Shown in pieces: positions 1,953-20,092 of a stretch of 55,856 bases of DNA; within the stretch, counting starts at the first letter, position 1; each line of letters starts with the position of its first letter. This DNA comes from a virus. Both the position numbers and the translations under genes were made by a program. Below the pieces are notes generated by a model, which saw only the letters and a program-made list of their open reading frames with translations, did no database searches and was not told where the DNA came from. The DNA is taken from IMG/VR virus record IMGVR_UViG_3300031951_000193, positions 1 through 55,856 of that record. One strand, 5' to 3'.

Positions 1953-3053
1953 ATGGGTATTCTGAATCTGCCGTATTACGTTGCGGCTCAAGTGGGCATC
2001 CCGTCCATTGCGTGGGGCGGGACTGGCGTAGCAAAGACTGCATCCATCGAGGCTTGTGCCCGAGGCTGCGGTCGCACGTTTCATGCGTTCCTGCCAACGC
2101 ATCATCTGCCCGAAGAGATCGGCGGCATGCCCGCCATCTTCCGGGAAGAGCAGATCGTGCGGATGCTGCCGTTGGACTGGGTTCACGGCATGACCCAGCC
2201 CAGGTACTGGCTGCATCTGGACGAGTTCAACACCGGCTCGGCCATGATGCGTGCCTTCCTGCTGTCGGTCATCAACCCCAGCGAACGCCGCATCGGCACG
2301 CTGAAGTTGGCCGATGACCTGATCGTGACGAGTGCGGCTAACCCGCCGGACATCGCGCCGAACGCTGCCAGTCTGGAGGGATCGGTTGCCAACCGCTTCT
2401 TCCACTGGCGGTGGAAGACTCCGGTGCATGACTTCTACGTTGGCATCGAGACTGGCGTGTACCCCACGCCAACCGTGCCGGTGGTGAAGAACTCGGAGAT
2501 CGGTGAGAAGGCGTGGGGCCGCAAGATCCGGCTGTTCTTGGAGAGCAAGCCGGACTTCGTGGAAACCAAGGAGATCGAGCCCGACGCCCTGTCGTTCCCC
2601 AGTCTGCGGACATGGAGTTACGTCAAGCGTGGCTGTGCCGCCATGGAATCCGTTGGTGCTACCGCCAACGAGTTCGTGGAGTTCGTCACTGGCTGCGTTG
2701 GCCAGACGGCAGCGGCACTGTTCGTGCCGTTCGCCCAGGCCATGGACTTGTACTCCGCACGGGAAGTGATGGAGGGCAAGTCCACGGTGAACTTCAACGA
2801 CAAGTTGGACCGGCTCTTCCAACTGCCGTCTGCCCTGATCTTCCATGCCCAGCAGGCCATGGACGAGGGCACGCTGACGGATGACATGGTTGACCGTGCG
2901 TTCGTCGTGCTGCTGACGTTGGGCGAGAAGGGGTTGGTGGATGCGGTGAAGCAGCCCATCTCTGCCATCGCCCTGCTCAAGCCCGGTTACAAGCCGCCTC
3001 GCCAGTACAAGGACCGCTTCGGTGCCTTGCTGGCACAGATCATGAAGGTCTGA
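1953..3053 (+). CDS. MoxR-like AAA ATPase, 366 aa
   Basis: Walker A is GGTGVAKT at residues 22-29. Walker B is LHLDEF at 87-92. A sensor-1 Asn is in TSAANPP near 130, and an arginine-finger-like NRFF lies near 148. The order and spacing fit the MoxR branch of AAA+ ATPases, which remodel partner proteins and are usually encoded beside a VWA protein, as here. About 200 further residues follow the ATPase core and may form the lid and a partner-binding region. The start is set by GGGGAG before the ATG at 1953. The substrate cannot be read from sequence. Confidence 0.88.
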   Translation: MGILNLPYYVAAQVGIPSIAWGGTGVAKTASIEACARGCGRTFHAFLPTHHLPEEIGGMPAIFREEQIVRMLPLDWVHGMTQPRYWLHLDEFNTGSAMMRAFLLSVINPSERRIGTLKLADDLIVTSAANPPDIAPNAASLEGSVANRFFHWRWKTPVHDFYVGIETGVYPTPTVPVVKNSEIGEKAWGRKIRLFLESKPDFVETKEIEPDALSFPSLRTWSYVKRGCAAMESVGATANEFVEFVTGCVGQTAAALFVPFAQAMDLYSAREVMEGKSTVNFNDKLDRLFQLPSALIFHAQQAMDEGTLTDDMVDRAFVVLLTLGEKGLVDAVKQPISAIALLKPGYKPPRQYKDRFGALLAQIMKV

Positions 3054-3067
3054 CCGTCCACTCCCGG

Positions 3068-3114
3068 CCATGGGGGCGTAGCCCGCAGCAATGCGGCTGC
3101 GCTCCCATGGTTTT
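3068..3114 (+). terminator. Intrinsic terminator after the MoxR gene
   Basis: A long hairpin begins and ends with CCATGGG/CCCATGG (3068-3074 with 3104-3110), continues through an imperfect GC stem to a small GCAA loop near 3088-3091, and is followed directly by TTTT. It lies 15 bases after the MoxR stop. It is the best intrinsic terminator candidate in the rightward region. Confidence 0.7.
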
Positions 3115-3154
3115 GGAGTACCAACCCAACCCCCTCTTTCCCAGGAGTTTTCCC

Positions 3155-4513
3155 ATGACCCGTGTCAAGTTGCCGCCCCATGTCGTGGCGGTGTCCAAGG
3201 CAAAGGACGTTGCCATGCAGTGGATGAAGTACCTCGGCGGCTACCTCGCCGGCGTGCCCACTGTCTTCGATGATCGCGTTCCCACCATGGGCGTTGATTC
3301 TTCGGGGCGACTCTACGTCAACCCGGAGTGGTGCCAGAAGTGGACCGACGAGCAGAACGCCTACGTTCTGCTGCATGAGATGTGCCACAACCTGCTGGGC
3401 CACGCCGACCGGCGGCAAGCGTACCTGCCCAACGCCACTCCCGAGCAGTTGGAGTGCTGGAACGTGGCTGCTGACCTGTGCATCCAGCAGATTCTGGATG
3501 ACCATGACCAGCACCGGCCCCGGCCATCCGTGGAACTGGCCAACTACCGGCATGTCAAGGGCATGGTGCCGGGCCTGTCCACCGAGCGGTACTACGGGAT
3601 CCTGTGGAACAACGGCAGCCCTGTCCCGCCACCGCCGCCGCCCCCCGGCAAGCCAGGGGATGACGATGGCGAGGGTCCGGGTGGGCAAGGCCAGCCGTCC
3701 GACGAGCAGGGCGACGATGAGCCCGGCAAGTCTGGCGGCAACGGTCCGCCGAGCAAGGGCAAGGGCAAGCAGCCGCATACCCAGTCCGGCTCTGCTGCGG
3801 ATGGGGTCAAGCAGGACTACGAACTGGAGTCTGACCTGACCTCGGCTGCGGCAAACCTGTCCCGGCTGGAGGAAGTACGGCAGCAGATGGAATCCGATGG
3901 GTCCATCGGCAGGGGCAGCGGTGCCGGCCAGTTGCGGCAATCGCTCAACGTCAGGCTGCGTCGGCAGCCCGATCCGTTCGACCAACTCAAGGCCATCGTT
4001 GGCAAGGAAACGTCGAGCCCCATCGGGGTGGATGAGTTCACCTACCGCAGGCTGTCCCGGATGCAGCAGCACCCGGACTTCCCCATGCGTGGCGTTATCA
4101 AGATGACCCCGGAGTGCGTCATTGTGCTGGACACTTCTGGCTCAATGGGTGCGGGCGCCAAGGGCGAGCGAGTCTCCCGTGCCGTGACGGCTATCGCCCA
4201 TGGCGTGAAGCGGCTTCGCAATCCACGGGTTATCTCATGGGACGGCAGGCTGCGGGATGACGCACGGTGCGAATCCATCCGCAACTTCCAGTGGATCGGC
4301 GGTGGCGGAACGTCCATGGAGGAAGCCGTGGAGTACGCAGACCAGAAGTACAAGCCGGACTGCATCGTGCTTGTCACGGACTGCGGTACGGGATGGCCGA
4401 GCAAGCCCACCCGTGCCCGGCTCGTTGTCGCTGCCGTCGCCATGGATTGCAAGCCGCCGGCGTGGTGCCGTGTCGTTGACCTGACGAAGGAGGCGCCCGG
4501 CTATGTCGGATGA
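3155..4513 (+). CDS. HExxH peptidase-like plus VWA protein (DUF2201-type), 452 aa
   Basis: The N-terminal domain has HEMCHNLLGH at residues 74-83, an HExxH zinc motif with a further His, followed by a WNVAADLC segment. This combination is typical of the DUF2201 N-terminal peptidase-like domain. A Pro/Gly/acidic low-complexity linker covers about residues 150-220. The C-terminal VWA-like domain carries the metal-binding DTSGS at 326-330. VWA proteins bind partners through a metal site, and MoxR ATPases often act on them. The start has AGGAG at the right distance. Whether the peptidase centre is active, and on what, is unknown. Confidence 0.85.
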   Translation: MTRVKLPPHVVAVSKAKDVAMQWMKYLGGYLAGVPTVFDDRVPTMGVDSSGRLYVNPEWCQKWTDEQNAYVLLHEMCHNLLGHADRRQAYLPNATPEQLECWNVAADLCIQQILDDHDQHRPRPSVELANYRHVKGMVPGLSTERYYGILWNNGSPVPPPPPPPGKPGDDDGEGPGGQGQPSDEQGDDEPGKSGGNGPPSKGKGKQPHTQSGSAADGVKQDYELESDLTSAAANLSRLEEVRQQMESDGSIGRGSGAGQLRQSLNVRLRRQPDPFDQLKAIVGKETSSPIGVDEFTYRRLSRMQQHPDFPMRGVIKMTPECVIVLDTSGSMGAGAKGERVSRAVTAIAHGVKRLRNPRVISWDGRLRDDARCESIRNFQWIGGGGTSMEEAVEYADQKYKPDCIVLVTDCGTGWPSKPTRARLVVAAVAMDCKPPAWCRVVDLTKEAPGYVG

Positions 4514-6102: not shown

Positions 6103-7107
6103 GTGCAGTTCAACGACTACTTTACCCATTACCAACTCGCCAAAAGTTCCGCCCGCCAGGACAGGGTATTGCAGAACCTGTCGGCACAAGAGTTTGCGAG
6201 GGGGTACATCACGCAACTGGAGTCCATTTGTCGAGCCAGTTACGGCAAGCAACTGGTGCAGGTGGACCCGTTTACGCCAACCCTTATCCAGTTAGAGGCA
6301 GACTGGCATGACGCGGGACGGCCCTATTACAACCTCTGGCCCAGCATCATTACGTCGCTTACCAAACTGCGCATGGATGCGGACGCCTCGTTCTTCCGGC
6401 TGCCGCTGGATCAACTGCTGATCCGGTTCCCGAAGCAGGACAACCCCTTGGCGTGGACCGACAAGGGGCAAGAGTGGAGTGTCAGGGCTGTGCTGTGTAA
6501 CAACGCACAGTTACTTGAGGGTAAGCGTGCGATGCGTTGGATCGAGCCTCGCATTGCGGCAGACCTTCCTAGCAAAAGAGGCATCGCGTTTTGGATAGAT
6601 GTCAACGAGCCACTCGACCCTGATCTTGCATCGGGCCACCCTGGACGGTTGCACAGAATGATGTACAAACACATCGTCTGCGACGAGGGCAAGAGCATCG
6701 AGTGGTCGTTCGATAACATTCCTGCCCACGATTCCGCCGACATCGGCGTGCAGTACCCGGACCACATCGTTCGTGATGTTGCCCGTATCGTTTGCACGCT
6801 CTGCCTCATGGCCGAGGACAAAGAGATCGTGGAGCCGATTGTTCTCAAGGCAGACGAGGACAAGTTCGACCGCACTGGAGACTTGGCATTGGTGGCCAAG
6901 GCCATCCGGCGCGGCAACTACGGATTCAACGTCGGGCGATCCATCGAGGTGGTCCCGCATGTTCGCTCTGCCTGCCCTGCTGCCCTGTATTGGACGGGCG
7001 AGGGCAGGAAGATTCCCAAGATACGGTTCCGTCGTGGCACCGTTGTTCATCGCAAGCGGTTGGCGCAGGTGCCAACCGGGTTTCTCGACAAGGAGAAGAC
7101 TGAATGA
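6103..7107 (+). CDS. Hypothetical protein, 334 aa
   Basis: A GTG start follows AAGGAG by about 8 bases. The first 100 residues are helical. The centre (about 100-200) is beta-rich. The C-terminal 80 residues contain a G-R-S-I-E-V-V-P-H-V-R block followed by WTGEGRKIP and a basic end, a pattern I associate with widespread uncharacterised phage and plasmid proteins. No catalytic motif is evident. It overlaps the next gene by ATGA. Confidence 0.75.
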   Translation: MQFNDYFTHYQLAKSSARQDRVLQNLSAQEFARGYITQLESICRASYGKQLVQVDPFTPTLIQLEADWHDAGRPYYNLWPSIITSLTKLRMDADASFFRLPLDQLLIRFPKQDNPLAWTDKGQEWSVRAVLCNNAQLLEGKRAMRWIEPRIAADLPSKRGIAFWIDVNEPLDPDLASGHPGRLHRMMYKHIVCDEGKSIEWSFDNIPAHDSADIGVQYPDHIVRDVARIVCTLCLMAEDKEIVEPIVLKADEDKFDRTGDLALVAKAIRRGNYGFNVGRSIEVVPHVRSACPAALYWTGEGRKIPKIRFRRGTVVHRKRLAQVPTGFLDKEKTE

Positions 7108-8073: not shown

Positions 8074-8368
8074 ACTGACAGCGAAGAAGGCGAAGAAGAG
8101 GGTCGTGCGGGATGGCCGGCGGAAGATTCCCGCCGTGAACTACCTGCCCATACCGCCGACTCGGTTCTACGATCCTGCCGTAGACGCCGGGCTGGTGTTT
8201 CTTACTGGCAATCAGGCCAAGGCAACAGCCGAGTTGCTGGCGCAGGCGATCAAGTGGTGGAATTGGGCAGGGGATGGTTCGGACCAGCACGCCATGCGTG
8301 CGCTGGAAGGAACACTGGCCCGGCTGGAGGCCACGTTTGAATTGCCGACGTTTGGGAGGGAGTTCTAA
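8066..8368 (+). CDS. Hypothetical protein, 100 aa
   Basis: The ATG at 8066 overlaps the preceding stop by 8 bases and has GAGGGGAGA directly upstream. The N-terminus is very basic (AKLTAKKAKKRVVRDGRRK), followed by a beta segment and two helices (around QAKATAELLAQAI). The basic tail suggests nucleic-acid binding. Its TAA overlaps the start of the serine recombinase (TAATG). Confidence 0.65.
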   Translation: MAKLTAKKAKKRVVRDGRRKIPAVNYLPIPPTRFYDPAVDAGLVFLTGNQAKATAELLAQAIKWWNWAGDGSDQHAMRALEGTLARLEATFELPTFGREF

Positions 8369-9141
8369 TGAGCCGTGCTTTTTTGTATGGGCGGCACTCC
8401 ACGGACAAGCAGGAGTTGACCGAGGACATCCAGAAGGATCGGTGCATGGATTTCTACACTCGCCACCTGAAGCCGGCGGGCGTGGATCTGGCCAAGCCTG
8501 GGTGGTTCTATGACGATGCCGAATCGTCTGCCGTGCTGTTCGGGGAGCGAACGCATGGCCGTGTAGTGCTGGCCAGTTTGCAGCCGGGCGACCATCTGGT
8601 GGTGGCCAAGATGAGCCGGACGTTCCGGTCGGTGCGGGATGGGGAGAACACCCTGCACCAACTGAAACTCCGCAACGTCATCGTGCATCCACTCGACCTG
8701 CAAGTGGACACAACCAAGGCCCACGGCAGGTTTGTCCGGCAGGTCTGGATGGCGGCGGACGAACTATGGCGGGAGGTCAGCCGGGAGGCGGCGCAGGAAA
8801 CGCTGGCATACCGGCGGGCCAAGGGCTTGCCCACCAGCAAGTCCATCCCGATTGGCTGGCGTAGCGTAGGTGAGAAGCCCCGTCGAACCTACCAGTTAGA
8901 CCAGCGCGAGCGGGTGCTGGCCGAGCATATCGCCAGCCTGTACGCAGGCGGCATGTCGCTCGACAACATCGCTCTGTGGGGGATGCGTCAGCAGGAGTTC
9001 CACAACAAGCGGCAGTTCACCCACCGGGATGCCGTGAAGTGGGTGCTGAACGCCCGGTCGCTGGGCTATCCCAAGATCGAGGGTTACAAGGCTGTGCGGA
9101 AGATCATCCGCGAACAGCGTCAGGCGTCAGGGCAGGTTTGA
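8368..9141 (+). CDS. Serine site-specific recombinase, 257 aa
   Basis: The catalytic N-terminus reads YGRHSTDKQ, with the nucleophile Ser at residue 11, followed by conserved resolvase blocks (AKMSRTFRS near residue 85). The region after about residue 165 resembles the recombinase domain of large serine recombinases (SLYAGGMSLDNIA), but the protein is far shorter than phage integrases of that class and lacks the long zinc/coiled-coil part. It could be an invertase or resolvase, for example for fibre variation or dimer resolution. Its last codons overlap the convergent sigma-factor gene. Confidence 0.9.
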   Translation: MSRAFLYGRHSTDKQELTEDIQKDRCMDFYTRHLKPAGVDLAKPGWFYDDAESSAVLFGERTHGRVVLASLQPGDHLVVAKMSRTFRSVRDGENTLHQLKLRNVIVHPLDLQVDTTKAHGRFVRQVWMAADELWREVSREAAQETLAYRRAKGLPTSKSIPIGWRSVGEKPRRTYQLDQRERVLAEHIASLYAGGMSLDNIALWGMRQQEFHNKRQFTHRDAVKWVLNARSLGYPKIEGYKAVRKIIREQRQASGQV

Positions 9142-14928: not shown

Positions 14929-16512
14929 CTATTTGCTAAATCCCTTGTTCTTGCAGTGCTTCCTGCGTTCCATCTCGTCCGTGCATGCTTTTAGAACAGC
15001 GCGGTCACGGCAGTCGGATTTGTTGACCACCCACCACAGGTACGGGTGCGGGATCACGCTGAAACTCATTCGCTTGTAGCGGCCGAACGGCATCGCAGTG
15101 CAGACACGCACGCGCTCGGGCTGCTCGGCAGAGCGGTAGACATCGTGCTGGTAGTTGCCGTAGCGGGCCTGCACGACATGCCCCTGGCGACGGCTCCACT
15201 CAAGTTGATCGCGGGCGTGCTGCTCCCGGGCCTCGGCCTCCCGCTCGGCCTCTATTACAGGATCGAGCGTCCGGCCCGTTTGGGCCCCCGCGTTCTCCTG
15301 CTTCTTGCGGACCCGCCGCATAACCGTGGCGTCGAGGTCGGGGTACAAAACGTCGAGCGAGGTACACAGGTCGTTGTGCCTGGACGAGTCTGTAATATCG
15401 AACACTTCAAAGTACGGCTTGGCCGAGTTGGCAATGGCCACCTTCCGCTGCTCGGCAGACCCGTAGCCGTCAACTACGCCTGTCAGTGGCCGCGTCCCAC
15501 GGCCAAACATCTGGACGTACTTGGCCTTGCTTCTCGTCGGCTTGGCAACGAACAGTTTCCTTACCGGGGGCCAGTCCCAGCCAAGCGTTAGGCAGCCCAC
15601 GTTCAGAACAATGTTGACCACGCCTGTCTCAAAATCAGTCAGGTGCTGGCGGCGTTCGATGTCATCCATCTGCGAGTGAACGATGGAGGACTCGATACCC
15701 CGACGCTTGAGGTTGTCCCGCAGAGCCTCGGCCTGAAATATGCCCTGGCAGAACACTACGCTCGGGTCGCCCTCATGGTGCTGCTCCACCAGTGAGCCGA
15801 TCTCCTGCACGGTCTGTTCCTGTGCCATGACGCGGGCCAGTTCGTCAGCGTTGAAGTCGCCAAACTTCTGTGCCCGCATCCGTGCCGTGGACAGGTCAAG
15901 GCTTTCAAGGACCGATAGCCAAACCTTGGCTGGCACAAGCCAGCCATCCTCGGTGGCCTGACTAATCGGGTAGTAGAACCCGATGTTGCCGTAGTAGGCC
16001 GTGAGCGGATCTCCCTTGGATCGCTCGGGGCTGGCAGTCAGCCCGACCAACCTAACGCCACCCTGCGTCAGGTTGGTGAGCATCTCCAGTGCGCGCTTGG
16101 AGAAGTTCTGGTGAACCTCATCCACGATAATCAGGTCTACCGCGTTGATGTACCTTTCCCACCGCTTGCGTGAGAGCAGGGATTGGTAGCAAGCAACCGT
16201 GACCTTCTCGTCGGAACGTAGTCCTCCCTGTTCGACGCCGCACTCGATGCCCCGGCTTCGCAGCCGCTGGGCCGTCTGTCCAACCAGTTGAATCAGTGGG
16301 GCAATGAACAATGCCCCCTTGACGCACTCCCGAATCAGTTCCGCAGCGATCTCTGTTTTTCCGGTTCCCGTGGCAAGCACGCCCAGCGTCCTGCCGCTGG
16401 AGTTCAAGGCCATCCTGATCCCTGCCAGCGCGTCACGCTGGTATGGGCGCAGGCTGATTGGCTTGCAGTTATCAACTGGAAACAGGGTCTGCTGGCTCGT
16501 TATCTCGCTCAT
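14929..16512 (-). CDS. Superfamily 2 DEAD/DEAH-box DNA helicase, 527 aa
   Basis: Walker A ATGTGKT is at residues 47-53 after a Q-like RPYQRDAL block. Motif II is DEVH at 131-134. Motif III-like TASPERSKGDP follows, and motif VI QMFGRGTRP is near residue 340. The set is that of SF2 helicases of the ResIII/RAD25 type seen in many phages. It probably unwinds recombination or replication forks. GGGAG precedes the ATG. It lies in the same leftward group as ERF and exonuclease, which supports a recombination role. Confidence 0.9.
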   Translation of the reverse strand: MSEITSQQTLFPVDNCKPISLRPYQRDALAGIRMALNSSGRTLGVLATGTGKTEIAAELIRECVKGALFIAPLIQLVGQTAQRLRSRGIECGVEQGGLRSDEKVTVACYQSLLSRKRWERYINAVDLIIVDEVHQNFSKRALEMLTNLTQGGVRLVGLTASPERSKGDPLTAYYGNIGFYYPISQATEDGWLVPAKVWLSVLESLDLSTARMRAQKFGDFNADELARVMAQEQTVQEIGSLVEQHHEGDPSVVFCQGIFQAEALRDNLKRRGIESSIVHSQMDDIERRQHLTDFETGVVNIVLNVGCLTLGWDWPPVRKLFVAKPTRSKAKYVQMFGRGTRPLTGVVDGYGSAEQRKVAIANSAKPYFEVFDITDSSRHNDLCTSLDVLYPDLDATVMRRVRKKQENAGAQTGRTLDPVIEAEREAEAREQHARDQLEWSRRQGHVVQARYGNYQHDVYRSAEQPERVRVCTAMPFGRYKRMSFSVIPHPYLWWVVNKSDCRDRAVLKACTDEMERRKHCKNKGFSK

Positions 16513-16799: not shown

Positions 16800-17031
16800 C
16801 ACTCGTACTCCCCGTTGGAAACAGTTCCGCACCACTGGCGGCGCGGAGCATGTCGATTTCTGCCAAGAGGGTTTGGATGTCCTCTCGGTTGCGTGTCAGT
16901 GCGTCGAAGACCAGCCCGTAGGTGGACTCGTCAAACCGCACCTTGTCCGGCGTGCGGACCACTAGGTCAGCAACGTCCGCCGTAAGCAGCAGCCTTTGCT
17001 TGAGCGCGAGGTAATCGCCTGGAGGGATCAC
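16552..17031 (-). CDS. Hypothetical protein, up to 159 aa, overlapping the next gene
   Basis: A GTG at 17031 overlaps the ERF stop (GTGA) and AAGGAG precedes it. The first 70 residues are normal helical protein (DYLALKQRLLLTADVADLVV). The rest turns into Gly/Ala/Arg-rich sequence exactly where the 86-aa gene is read in another frame. Either the two overlap by about 248 bases or the gene really ends earlier and an indel hides its stop. Confidence 0.6.
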   Translation of the reverse strand: MIPPGDYLALKQRLLLTADVADLVVRTPDKVRFDESTYGLVFDALTRNREDIQTLLAEIDMLRAASGAELFPTGSTSDAQGIDAGHRGTVEVVQGPSGGGSGGEVRADAAGLGGEVQAGGANGERAKRSKPRRNRKGGQSPAPAVDAGSTAESVGGSPG

Positions 17032-17657
17032 TTGCTCTCCTTTTTGGTCTTGAGCAGCCGCTCCCGCTGGGCCACGAACGCCTTCTCGATGTCGGCCAGT
17101 TGGCCTGGGGGCAGGTCGTGTTCCTGCACCCGGGCCCACAGGGCATCGAGCCGCTCCGGGGTTGCGGCCTGCTTGACGGCCGACTTGATGGCATTTAGAT
17201 CCGGGCCCGGTCGCGTGGGTGCTGGGGCAGGCGACTCGCCGGCATCGGCGTCCGCGATGTCTTCGCCATCACTGGCGTCATCTACCGACAGGCAGAGGAT
17301 GCGGCTGTAGCCGAGCCTCGCCATGTAGGTGCAGAACGAGTGGGTGTGCTGCGGATTGGGGAAGTAGGGAATCGGAATAGCGCTGACGCACCACTCTCCC
17401 TTGCAGGACAGCCGCGTCACCAGCAGCATCGACCGATCATCCTGCGACACGAACGTCTGCCGCACCGACAGCCCGTACTTGGACAGGGCTGGCTTCGTCG
17501 CGTCCTCCATGGCCGACAGATCGGCAAACATCCCGTAGGGGCCTTGCCGATTGCGCGTGACCTTCTTGAACTCCCCCTGCGCTTTGGCGAGCGCAACATC
17601 CAACTCCAGTGACGTTGGGCTGCACTCCTGATAGACGTATGTCGCTGACCTCACCAT
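17028..17657 (-). CDS. erf: ERF-family single-strand annealing protein, 209 aa
   Basis: The start at 17657 has GGAGGG immediately upstream. Residues 15-75 match the ERF N-terminal domain: a helical LELDVALAKAQGEFKKV, then GPYGMFADLSAMEDATKPAL and KYGLSVRQTF. The middle holds a beta-rich core, and the C-terminus is an Asp/Ala/Pro linker and a helical tail. ERF proteins anneal complementary strands during phage recombination and genome circularisation. It overlaps the exonuclease stop by 7 bases, as expected for an exonuclease-annealase pair. Confidence 0.85.
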   Translation of the reverse strand: MVRSATYVYQECSPTSLELDVALAKAQGEFKKVTRNRQGPYGMFADLSAMEDATKPALSKYGLSVRQTFVSQDDRSMLLVTRLSCKGEWCVSAIPIPYFPNPQHTHSFCTYMARLGYSRILCLSVDDASDGEDIADADAGESPAPAPTRPGPDLNAIKSAVKQAATPERLDALWARVQEHDLPPGQLADIEKAFVAQRERLLKTKKESK

Positions 17658-18514
17658 GGCTTCCCTCCAAGGAATGGCTTGCTGGGCATCTCGATGACTT
17701 CGCCGTATCCCTTCGGTGCCCACCAATCCAAGGCACGGCGTTGATCCAGTTCGCGGAGCAGTTCGCTCACGCGCTTTTCCGCATGGCGGTGAACGTCTTG
17801 CGGCAGCACCATCACGGCACAGTGGTGCGGGTAGGTGTTGCTGGTGGCGATGAAGTGCATCCGGTGCTTGGGCCATCCGGCGGCTACCGCTGCGAGGCCG
17901 TAGAGAGCGGCCTGCAATTCGTACTTCCACTCCTTGCACGACCACACGAACTGTTCGGCTGGGTCGGCATCGCGCGTGGTCTTCAGGTCATAGAAGACTT
18001 CCGGCGTGGCACCATCGACACGGCAGCGGCAGGCATGCCCGTTGTGCGAGAACCGCACGTTGAACTCGGCGTCCACTCTCGCCGCGAGCAGGTCGGCCGC
18101 AGCGGGGTTGGCGAGAATCTGGTCGGTTTGCAGCCGCAGTTGGTTGAAGTCCGCCGGGCTGATCGGGATGTCTTCTGGCGACAGCGTGGCCAGCCAGAGA
18201 GCCGCTGACTTTGCTAACTGTCCCGTGCCAGTGACATGATCCGGCGGGCAGACTTTGACGCGGCTCCAGAACTGGTCTGGGCCGATCTCATGCCAACTGT
18301 GAAGAAGTGTCCCGTAGGACAACGCCGCCGATGTCTTGGGCGGGGCGTCTTTCGCCACGAACCGCCGGTAGTATGCCAGCGGTGATGTGGCCAACTCTTT
18401 CAGTTGGGACGCACTGGTTTCGGGCCAGCCGTGGTATTCCTCGGCTGGTTCGTGCGAGACAGATGCTGATGATTCTGTCGAAAGTAGCGGCGGCCGGACT
18501 TGAACCGGCGACAC
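17651..18514 (-). CDS. PD-(D/E)xK exonuclease (RecE/lambda-exo-like), 287 aa
   Basis: In this numbering Asp167 (RVDGATPE) and YDLKTT with Asp176 and Lys178 form the nuclease centre. YELQAALYGL provides the helix with Gln201 and Tyr205 typical of RecE/RecB-like exonucleases. The N-terminal block EYHGWPETSASQLKELATSP is characteristic of phage exonucleases. The likely start is a GTG at 18514, inside the tRNA-derived segment. Longer frames would translate the tRNA fragment. It degrades one strand to feed the ERF protein. Confidence 0.82.
   Translation of the reverse strand: MSPVQVRPPLLSTESSASVSHEPAEEYHGWPETSASQLKELATSPLAYYRRFVAKDAPPKTSAALSYGTLLHSWHEIGPDQFWSRVKVCPPDHVTGTGQLAKSAALWLATLSPEDIPISPADFNQLRLQTDQILANPAAADLLAARVDAEFNVRFSHNGHACRCRVDGATPEVFYDLKTTRDADPAEQFVWSCKEWKYELQAALYGLAAVAAGWPKHRMHFIATSNTYPHHCAVMVLPQDVHRHAEKRVSELLRELDQRRALDWWAPKGYGEVIEMPSKPFLGGKPW
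18475..18481. repeat. Inverted TCGACAG copy, left of the tRNA fragment
   Basis: CTGTCGA at 18475-18481 is the reverse complement of TCGACAG at 18543-18549. The two copies face each other across the tRNA-derived core, at distances suited to recombinase binding sites. Confidence 0.45.
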
Positions 18515-18531
18515 CCGGCTTATGAAGCCGG
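18485..18531 (-). other. attP: tRNA-Met 3' half, probable attP core
   Basis: Read on the minus strand this stretch gives an intact anticodon arm (CCGGC stem, CAT anticodon in TTCATAA), a 5-base variable loop, a perfect T-arm (GCCGG-TTCAAGT-CCGGC), the acceptor 3' strand CGCCGCT and discriminator A. CCA is not encoded. The matching acceptor 5' strand and a D-arm are absent upstream. A tRNA 3' half beside an integrase gene is the usual form of attP in phages that integrate into a tRNA gene. Confidence 0.75.
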
Positions 18532-18542
18532 ACCGCCCACTC

Positions 18543-18562
18543 TCGACAGGCGCTGGCCTGTC
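18543..18562. repeat. TCGACAG copy and perfect 7-bp palindrome right of the core
   Basis: TCGACAG at 18543-18549 is the partner of the inverted copy at 18475. It overlaps a perfect hairpin GACAGGC-GCTG-GCCTGTC (18545-18562). Possible integrase or excisionase binding sites, or a transcript hairpin. Confidence 0.5.
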
Positions 18563-18583
18563 CAACTGTGCCGTCTCCCAGCC

Positions 18584-18598
18584 GTAATAACCCATATC
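18584..18598. promoter_or_regulatory. AT-rich patch between divergent exonuclease and integrase genes
   Basis: This is the only AT-rich stretch (GTAATAACCCATATC) in the divergent intergenic region between the exonuclease start and the integrase start. It is a reasonable place for a promoter on either strand. No clear paired -35 and -10 can be read. Confidence 0.25.
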
Positions 18599-18671
18599 CC
18601 TCGCACGGGGTACGGACCTCCCGCGGCGAAAAACCCCCTCAAGGAGTTTGCCCCCCCAGAAAGAGCATCCC

Positions 18672-19541
18672 ATGTTATCTGCATCGTCAGCATCCTTGCC
18701 TTACGCCACGATGACGCTACGCGATTTGCTCAATGCCTACACGGCATCGGTGGCCTGCGGTCCCCGCTACCAAGAATCCCTGCAACGAACCGTCGCCAAG
18801 GCGGCAGGATACGGCCTGATTCGGGTGTGTCAACTCTCGCCCGAGAAGGTCAACGATTTCCTGGGAAAACTGCCTCTGGCTCCCACGACGCGGCACAACA
18901 TCCGCCGCGAGTTGATGACGCTCTGGCGATGGGCGTATGAGGAGAGGCTGACCGACAGTCAACCCACTCGCGTCAAGAGAATCGCGGCGCGCCGGGGGCC
19001 ACCGCAGGCGTGGAGCAGAGAGCAGGTGACGAGTTTGCTCGACGCGGCTGAACGCGACGAGCGGCGGGTCAACGCTCTCCACCCACACGCCAAGCGGTGC
19101 CATGTGCTGCCGGCCTGGATTTCCGTGGGGTGGGAAACCGGCCTGCGGCTGACGGACATGCTCTCGCTACGGCAGGAGCATTTCCGGCACGACTGCATCG
19201 TTACCGTCGCCCACAAGACCGGCAAGCCAACCGTCCGCCGAATAGGCGAGTACGCCCAGCGGCGATGTGAGTGGCTTTTGGAGAACAGCCCTGACGGCAC
19301 GCTACTCGCGTGGCTCTTGCCTCGCCGCCGGGCAATACTGCTTTGGCGAGACTTCCTGCGAGAGCGGCGACTTTCCGGCAGCAGCAAGTGGTTGCGGCGA
19401 GCGGGTGCGACAGAACTTGAGCGACTCGCCCCAGGCTCTGCCGCACGGTGGCTCGATCACTCCAATCCCGCACTGTGCAGCCTTCACTACATTGACCCCA
19501 CGCTGTTGAGCCCGCCGATAGGACCGCCGCCGCTGCGATAG
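18672..19541 (+). CDS. int: Tyrosine recombinase / integrase, 289 aa
   Basis: The N-terminal SAM-like core-binding domain covers residues 10-100. In the catalytic domain Arg159 lies in GWETGLRLTDML, Lys182 in VAHKTGKP, Arg242 in KWLRRAGATEL, His263 in LDHSNPA and the nucleophile Tyr273 in LHYIDP. The usual first His of the HxxR box is replaced by Lys239, a variant I associate with planctomycete integrases. The ATG at 18672 has AAAGAG upstream. A TTG at 18648 is an alternative. It lies next to the tRNA-Met fragment. Confidence 0.88.
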   Translation: MLSASSASLPYATMTLRDLLNAYTASVACGPRYQESLQRTVAKAAGYGLIRVCQLSPEKVNDFLGKLPLAPTTRHNIRRELMTLWRWAYEERLTDSQPTRVKRIAARRGPPQAWSREQVTSLLDAAERDERRVNALHPHAKRCHVLPAWISVGWETGLRLTDMLSLRQEHFRHDCIVTVAHKTGKPTVRRIGEYAQRRCEWLLENSPDGTLLAWLLPRRRAILLWRDFLRERRLSGSSKWLRRAGATELERLAPGSAARWLDHSNPALCSLHYIDPTLLSPPIGPPPLR

Positions 19542-19825: not shown

Positions 19826-20092
19826 TCAGCAGTCCCAGGCACGCAATGATTTGTTGATGCGAGAGTTCGGGTCGTTGGCCGTCTTTTTGCTGGTGAGTTT
19901 TCGCTTCATGCCCTGCATCCGGGCGCAGAAACTGCGTTTGCGGGGTCCGCCCTCTGGCTGCGGCGGCTTGAGGTTGGCCCCGTGTTCCTCGTTGTAGGAC
20001 CGCCGGCCCTTGTCATTCAGGCCACCCTTGGGGTTCTGGCCCTCCTTGCGGGACCACGCGCCGGACTTGAGTTTGCGTATGGTGTCGCTCAT
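19826..20092 (-). CDS. Small basic protein, DUF6321-like, 88 aa
   Basis: The pattern GLNDKGRRSYNEEHGANLK, followed by RKRSFCARMQGMKRKL and a final LRAWDC, matches from memory the DUF6321 family of small phage proteins (GLSxKGRxxYN, SFCARMxGM, LRxWxC). It is strongly basic. It overlaps the large 1156-aa gene by ATGA. Function is unknown, but its position among virion genes suggests packaging or structural use. Confidence 0.75.
   Translation of the reverse strand: MSDTIRKLKSGAWSRKEGQNPKGGLNDKGRRSYNEEHGANLKPPQPEGGPRKRSFCARMQGMKRKLTSKKTANDPNSRINKSLRAWDC

Follow-up and report, generated by a model that had tools for sequence, protein, structure and literature searches.

The locus studied here raises the question of what becomes of a phage gene when the site at which the phage integrates appears to lie within the 5' part of that gene. 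The window, by which we mean the whole stretch of DNA analysed (55,856 nucleotides), is a virus record in IMG/VR (IMGVR_UViG_3300031951_000193). A preliminary description, made from its letters, placed a tRNA-Met-derived attP beside the integrase gene and over the start of an exonuclease gene, and proposed that in the lysogen the promoter of the host tRNA gene might express the exonuclease together with the ERF and helicase genes. The features on which the argument depends are as follows.

14929-16512, minus strand: DEAD/DEAH-type helicase, in the same gene run as the exonuclease (ResIII 3e-19, phrog_16 1e-63)
17028-17657, minus strand: ERF-like single-strand annealing protein, next after the exonuclease (phrog_155 1e-14, phrog_2324 1e-13)
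17651-18565, minus strand: RecE/ExoVIII-like PD-(D/E)XK exonuclease, likeliest start TTG 18565 (Pfam DUF3799 2e-14, PDDEXK_1)
18437-18484, minus strand: P'-side arm of attP, exonuclease codons from the core to the first conserved motif (YH)
18475-18481, minus strand: copy of TCGACAG beside the core, at chance level
18485-18531, minus strand: attP core, 3' part of tRNA-Met(CAT), within the exonuclease frame
18512-18514, minus strand: GTG within the core, in the exonuclease frame, without a Shine-Dalgarno (SD) sequence; the start given in the preliminary description
18532-18671, minus strand: P-side arm of attP, from the integrase to the core, holding the upstream exonuclease starts
18543-18549, plus strand: copy of TCGACAG beside the core, at chance level
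18672-19541, plus strand: tyrosine integrase, divergent from the exonuclease (phrog_1 integrase 4e-12)
19826-20092, minus strand: conserved 88-aa gene beyond the integrase (tblastn)

The window exonuclease also matches phrog_412 exonuclease VIII (7e-38) and reaches 54 bits with the nuclease-domain profile DUF3799, the cut-off being 26, while the integrase catalytic residues R..K..KxxR..H..Y become visible on aligning the protein with 14 relatives. In INPHARED the exonuclease has distant cyanophage matches only and the integrase has none, and a viral single-protein scan with the window integrase as the query gave no match. The window phage carries a second recombinase (8368-9141, plus strand) that matches DNA invertase and integrase families (phrog_125, phrog_95).

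The tRNA-derived core and its host genes

The core, lying between the divergent tyrosine integrase on the right and the exonuclease on the left, has the full sequence CCGGCTTCATAAGCCGGGTGTCGCCGGTTCAAGTCCGGCCGCCGCTA. It is composed of CCGGC-TTCATAA-GCCGG-GTGTC-GCCGG-TTCAAGT-CCGGC-CGCCGCTA, corresponding in order to the anticodon arm (CAT), the variable loop, the T-arm and the acceptor 3' strand. The same core is present in 22 other IMG/VR contigs, none of which has the host 5' half, and the similarity among the core-bearing viral contigs ends sharply at the first anticodon-stem base (CCGGC) and past CTA. These edges and the missing host 5' half fit recombination in the anticodon loop.

It is noted that ARAGORN calls a tRNA-Met at 18484-18554 on the minus strand, extending the core to a full tRNA, from which it could be argued that the phage encodes a degenerate yet functional tRNA-Met gene. 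Against this, the Rfam tRNA score of the window segment is 23.9 bits, under the gathering cut-off of 29; the bases preceding the anticodon stem are unlike those of the host tRNA and vary among the relatives; and the 5' acceptor strand and D-arm of the ARAGORN call match no host gene. Since the D-arm, and hence a complete cloverleaf, is absent from every phage examined, the segment is an attP core rather than a tRNA gene. The sub-cut-off Rfam score and the missing D-arm rule out an intact phage tRNA gene, and a degenerate but functional one is exceedingly improbable. An intact tRNA gene with a conserved D-arm in related phages, which the preliminary description had named as an observation that would speak against it, was not found.

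The other such observation, that no host tRNA-Met gene would match 18485-18531, is contradicted by the host genomes. A scan for the core in 84,980 species genomes gave 33 loci, nearly all labelled Planctomycetota, and in 32 of them the tRNA-Met(CAT) is complete, with GGCRGCGTAGCTCAGTTGGTTAGAGCA followed by the core. While 33 is the number of matches within the scan pattern, full identity to the window core at 47/47 positions is seen at 12 loci, all in Planctomycetota MAGs, with 21 more being near-identical. This confirms the tRNA-Met 3' part that had been claimed on the minus strand beside the integrase, and the matches in Planctomycetota MAGs support the planctomycete hosts that had been supposed. 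With the identity to the host tRNA 3' end, the adjacent tyrosine recombinase and the host-phage junctions found in relatives (see below), the site has the features of a tRNA-targeting attP.

In two relatives, L118 and L129, the same layout is present with a different core, that of tRNA-Gly(CCC); among 397 genomes of the host order, 53 have a match to this core segment, and three of the matches that were fetched proved on checking to be complete tRNA-Gly genes.

Downstream of tRNA-Met in different MAGs (L024-L056), a few flanks recur, and on two contigs of one MAG (L045 and L049) the tRNA and the upstream DNA are identical while the downstream DNA differs, which suggests that several mobile elements may use the tRNA-Met site. 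Among distant relatives of the integrase (L081, L085, L086, L087), the integrase has upstream of it either a complete tRNA-Leu-like gene (L081) or tRNA-like 3' pieces.

The exonuclease frame across the core

In 22/22 distinct phages with the core, namely 20 with a tRNA-Met core (window included) and two with the tRNA-Gly(CCC) core, the exonuclease frame is open across the core to an in-frame start upstream, so that the claimed overlap of a tRNA-Met-derived attP with the exonuclease 5' end is supported. The tRNA-Met core is read as RLHKPGVAGSSPAAA in 16 phages, the commonest frame, and as GFISRVSPVQVRPPL or a variant of it in four, the window among them; the third frame, which has TAA in the anticodon loop, is used by none of the phages. 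The tRNA-Gly(CCC) core is read as QLPKLDVEGSSPFAR in its two phages. The layout is kept across strongly diverged exonucleases, which are about 30% identical between the two main groups.

The candidate exonuclease starts are situated in the arm towards the integrase, with clear SD matches of 5-7 nt in 11 phages; strong ribosome-binding sites are exemplified by taaggagcggataATG in L013, aaggagagatacATG in L059, gggaggataacgATG in L005 and cggaggttcagacATG in L119. The start/SD scores exceed those of dinucleotide shuffles of the same arm (combined p 1e-11), the probability of all 22 frames reaching a start is about 10^-5.4, and by the same score the exonuclease frame is ahead of the other two (p 3e-4); the three values are uncorrected for the relatedness of the phages and thus exaggerate the significance. 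In the 16 tRNA-Met phages of the commonest frame there is no start codon inside the core, and from the core to the YH...SxSqL motif the sole ATG, GTG or TTG is an SD-less TTG in L007 and L021. It is thus likely, as judged from these sequences, that the true exonuclease starts precede the core, on its integrase side. In the window, L011, L061, L066 and L118 the upstream start is a weak one, and L118 has a TTG just past its core. In L006, L015, L017, L020 and L021, the start codons of the divergent integrase and exonuclease genes share bases or are almost adjacent (CATG), and for some of these five the exonuclease ribosome-binding site is antisense to the first integrase codons.

The preliminary description had the exonuclease starting at GTG 18514 inside the core, with the host tRNA promoter transcribing the exonuclease-ERF-helicase genes in the lysogen. 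The GTG does exist, and in the window (where it would give 287 codons), L005 and L061 it shares the exonuclease frame and would survive integration; the tRNA gene of the prophage also points into the gene run. By contrast, the core is start-free in the 16 tRNA-Met phages that use the other frame, the GTG is mutated to GGG in L119, and where present in the window it has no SD sequence. Moreover, tRNA 3'-end processing would sever the core GTG from the mRNA. As a start for the whole family, GTG 18514 is therefore rejected. The window itself is one of the weaker cases: the in-frame starts upstream of the GTG are TTG 18565 (GGAG, spacing 9), ATG 18595 and ATG 18673, the P'-side arm (18437-18484) has no in-frame ATG, GTG or TTG, and TTG 18565, ATG 18595 and GTG 18514 are all possible starts. 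Since the window retains the GTG in its core, a start there with expression from the host tRNA promoter is possible for the window phage alone; taken as the explanation of the layout, it is very unlikely, and the integrated junction described below argues further against it.

The arms of the window attP themselves give few signals. The inverted TCGACAG copies said to flank the core both exist, but at chance level: TCGACAG is found 6 times in the window, where 7.9 copies would be expected, and 16% of shuffles attain an inverted match of 7 bp between the arms, so that TCGACAG is rejected as a specific flanking site. In six relatives (L005, L059, L011, L013, L065, L119) there are inverted matches of 8-9 bp (shuffle p 0.007-0.043), too weak for a claim of arm sites. 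A search of the window's P-side arm for a sigma-70 consensus promoter gave none, and the P-side arms of the temperate relatives contain one possible promoter only, TTGACG-18-TACGAT in L005 (p 0.145); in the integrase-less L112 and L113, a consensus promoter, TTGACA-16-TATCCT, is present upstream of the exonuclease.

The integrated state and relatives without the cassette

A search for planctomycete prophages with attL at tRNA-Met, as the preliminary description had called for, gave one natural case, belonging to a related phage. It came from an exonuclease search of 397 genomes of the host order (genome G201, contig C271); the same search gave no match in the 32 genomes that the tRNA scan had identified at first, nor did a scan of genome contigs for the core plus the exonuclease motif. 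In this contig an intact tRNA-Met (7007-7082, minus strand) is followed by the exonuclease (6166-6969, minus strand; E 3e-98), downstream of which are ERF and then a replication initiator. The exonuclease keeps the read-through frame, with LSWLEHRLHKPGVGGSSPPAAISDRPAPVTRGRAVIHRVAATEYFEW upstream, ending at the TAG of TAGCTCAG in the tRNA D-arm, and between this TAG and the motif the frame has no ATG, GTG or TTG. Directly after the tRNA-Met (L089, reverse complement) there is a 16-bp hairpin of -38 kcal/mol, missing in most other phages, which could insulate this prophage from tRNA read-through. The start-free frame and the hairpin both count against a core start fed by the host tRNA promoter, and exonuclease expression of that kind in the lysogen is not supported, the frame meeting TAG.

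The other type of junction, attR, is found in a different MAG (L026), where an integrase 47% identical to that of the window is followed by the P-side arm, the core and a host-type flank, the sequence past the core being that found downstream of intact tRNA-Met in several hosts. The attL and the attR thus come from different genomes, both of relatives of the window phage, rather than from a single complete prophage. In the L026 contig, the attR-type core adjoins a tandem pair of related tyrosine integrases (1600-2472 and 2746-3666), which looks like the outcome of element accretion at this tRNA-Met.

The junctions were also constructed in silico, each of the 20 tRNA-Met phage cores being joined to 5' halves of real host tRNA genes. 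In 15/20 the stretch from the tRNA stop to the YH motif has no ATG, GTG or TTG, in L007 and L021 only an SD-less TTG remains before the motif, and in the window, L005 and L061 the core GTG is kept in frame.

Based on these data, we propose the following pathway. Translation of the exonuclease from the circular or virion genome would start on the integrase side and run straight across the tRNA-derived core. Strand exchange would occur in the anticodon loop and the tRNA 3' half would come from the phage, so that on integration into tRNA-Met the host 5' half and the phage core would rebuild the tRNA. The start codon and ribosome-binding site of the exonuclease would then be left at the opposite prophage end, its frame in the prophage would abut the stop codon in the tRNA D-arm, and the integrase gene would stay whole and available for excision. 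With the start codon severed by integration, the exonuclease would be on after infection or excision and off in the lysogen. That attP lies inside the 5' coding part of the exonuclease and that integration gates the exonuclease in this way we consider quite probable, given the core, the read-through frame, the one natural attL with the severed frame, the one attR and the cassette-free relatives, all of which are read from sequence. The mechanism first proposed would then probably be reversed. It is possible that ERF and the helicase are transcribed from the host tRNA in the lysogen. We infer that the exonuclease protein would be absent in lysogens, the benefit being a lysogen free of the exonuclease or recombination functions coupled to the circular genome.

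The relatives without the tRNA piece bear on a further explanation, that the read-through reflects the packing of the integrase and exonuclease genes, with the splitting being neutral because a repressor silences the operon anyway. Phage genomes are compact, and once attP abuts the exonuclease, no exonuclease could be made unless the P-side arm were open. However, the integrase-less relatives start ordinarily. In L112, L113, L122-L124, L127, L143, L146 and L148 the tRNA piece is absent and the exonuclease starts ordinarily, just ahead of the YH motif; L112 and L113 are the closest relatives of the window exonuclease (71-72% identity) and its sister in the exonuclease tree (100/100). In the integrase-less L112, L113 and L122-L124 the 88-aa gene directly precedes the exonuclease (tblastn), and the distant homologue of cyanophage KBS-S-2A starts shortly before the motif (VNNAEYHAD). 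In L144 (IMGVR_UViG_3300027769_000049), a 61%-identical integrase adjoins an exonuclease with an ordinary start and no recognisable tRNA core. The ordinary starts in the cassette-free relatives imply that the N-terminal extension is tied to the integrase-attP cassette and dispensable for the enzyme family. In L085, an outgroup integrase locus, the gene that follows begins past the att-like piece with its own ribosome-binding site, which also argues against packing, as does the persistence of the layout in such divergent exonucleases and with a second tRNA target. We thus regard packing with neutral splitting as unlikely.

On the exonuclease tree, at least 4 changes are required between having att inside the gene and having none. 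Returning to the proposed gating by integration, we lean towards a widespread gate, repeatedly gained or lost and using two tRNA targets, in which insertion would switch the exonuclease off and excision would switch it on.

Comparison with known systems

In the open-access papers that were searched we found precedents for attP within a gene but no case of an exonuclease. In mycobacteriophage BPs and its relatives, attP is in the repressor gene, and integration trims the C-terminus and activates the repressor (PMC4557955). Our locus is similar in that attP is inside a phage gene whose output depends on integration; unlike BPs, the gene is for an exonuclease rather than a repressor, and the start is lost, so that integration should inactivate it (PMC4557955). 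Compared point by point with the BPs type, attP is in the coding frame in 22/22 phages and a change of the encoded product is seen at the attL and in 15/20 junctions, while the gene is not that of a repressor.

In the suicidal integrases of the SSV1 type, reported only in archaea, where archaeal viruses and plasmids have them, the att site is in the integrase gene (PMC8371274). Both there and here the att site is within a reading frame that is split by integration, but here the integrase is whole, the core being outside 18672-19541, and it is the neighbouring exonuclease that is split (PMC8371274). As the att site is inside an open reading frame that encodes neither a repressor nor an integrase, the present system belongs to neither the BPs nor the SSV class. 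If the proposed gating is true, control that depends on integration, exemplified by the BPs repressors and the archaeal SSV integrases, would include a recombination gene as well, and the attachment site itself would provide a repressor-independent coupling of a recombination exonuclease to the integration state. It would also add to what is described of temperate phages of freshwater planctomycetes, the host phylum having few described phages, and would mean that in phage contigs the exonuclease start will be misplaced by gene callers, which in prophages may overlook or shorten the gene.

The filamentous phage XacF1 integrates by XerC/D at a dif site, with a putative regulator gene of this inovirus being split (PMC5666396). 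It is alike in that integration splits a phage ORF holding attP, and it differs in the XerC/D and dif recombination, in being an inovirus and in the gene being that of a putative regulator (PMC5666396). In Tn916, genes that are severed from their promoter in the integrated element are expressed after excision, and an end-proximal terminator insulates the element from host transcription (PMC11658703). Similarly, expression here would be tied to the circular form, and the hairpin at the natural attL is a possible insulator as in Tn916 (PMC11658703). By contrast with the transcriptional control in that conjugative element, here the element is a phage and it is the start codon itself that is lost (PMC11658703).
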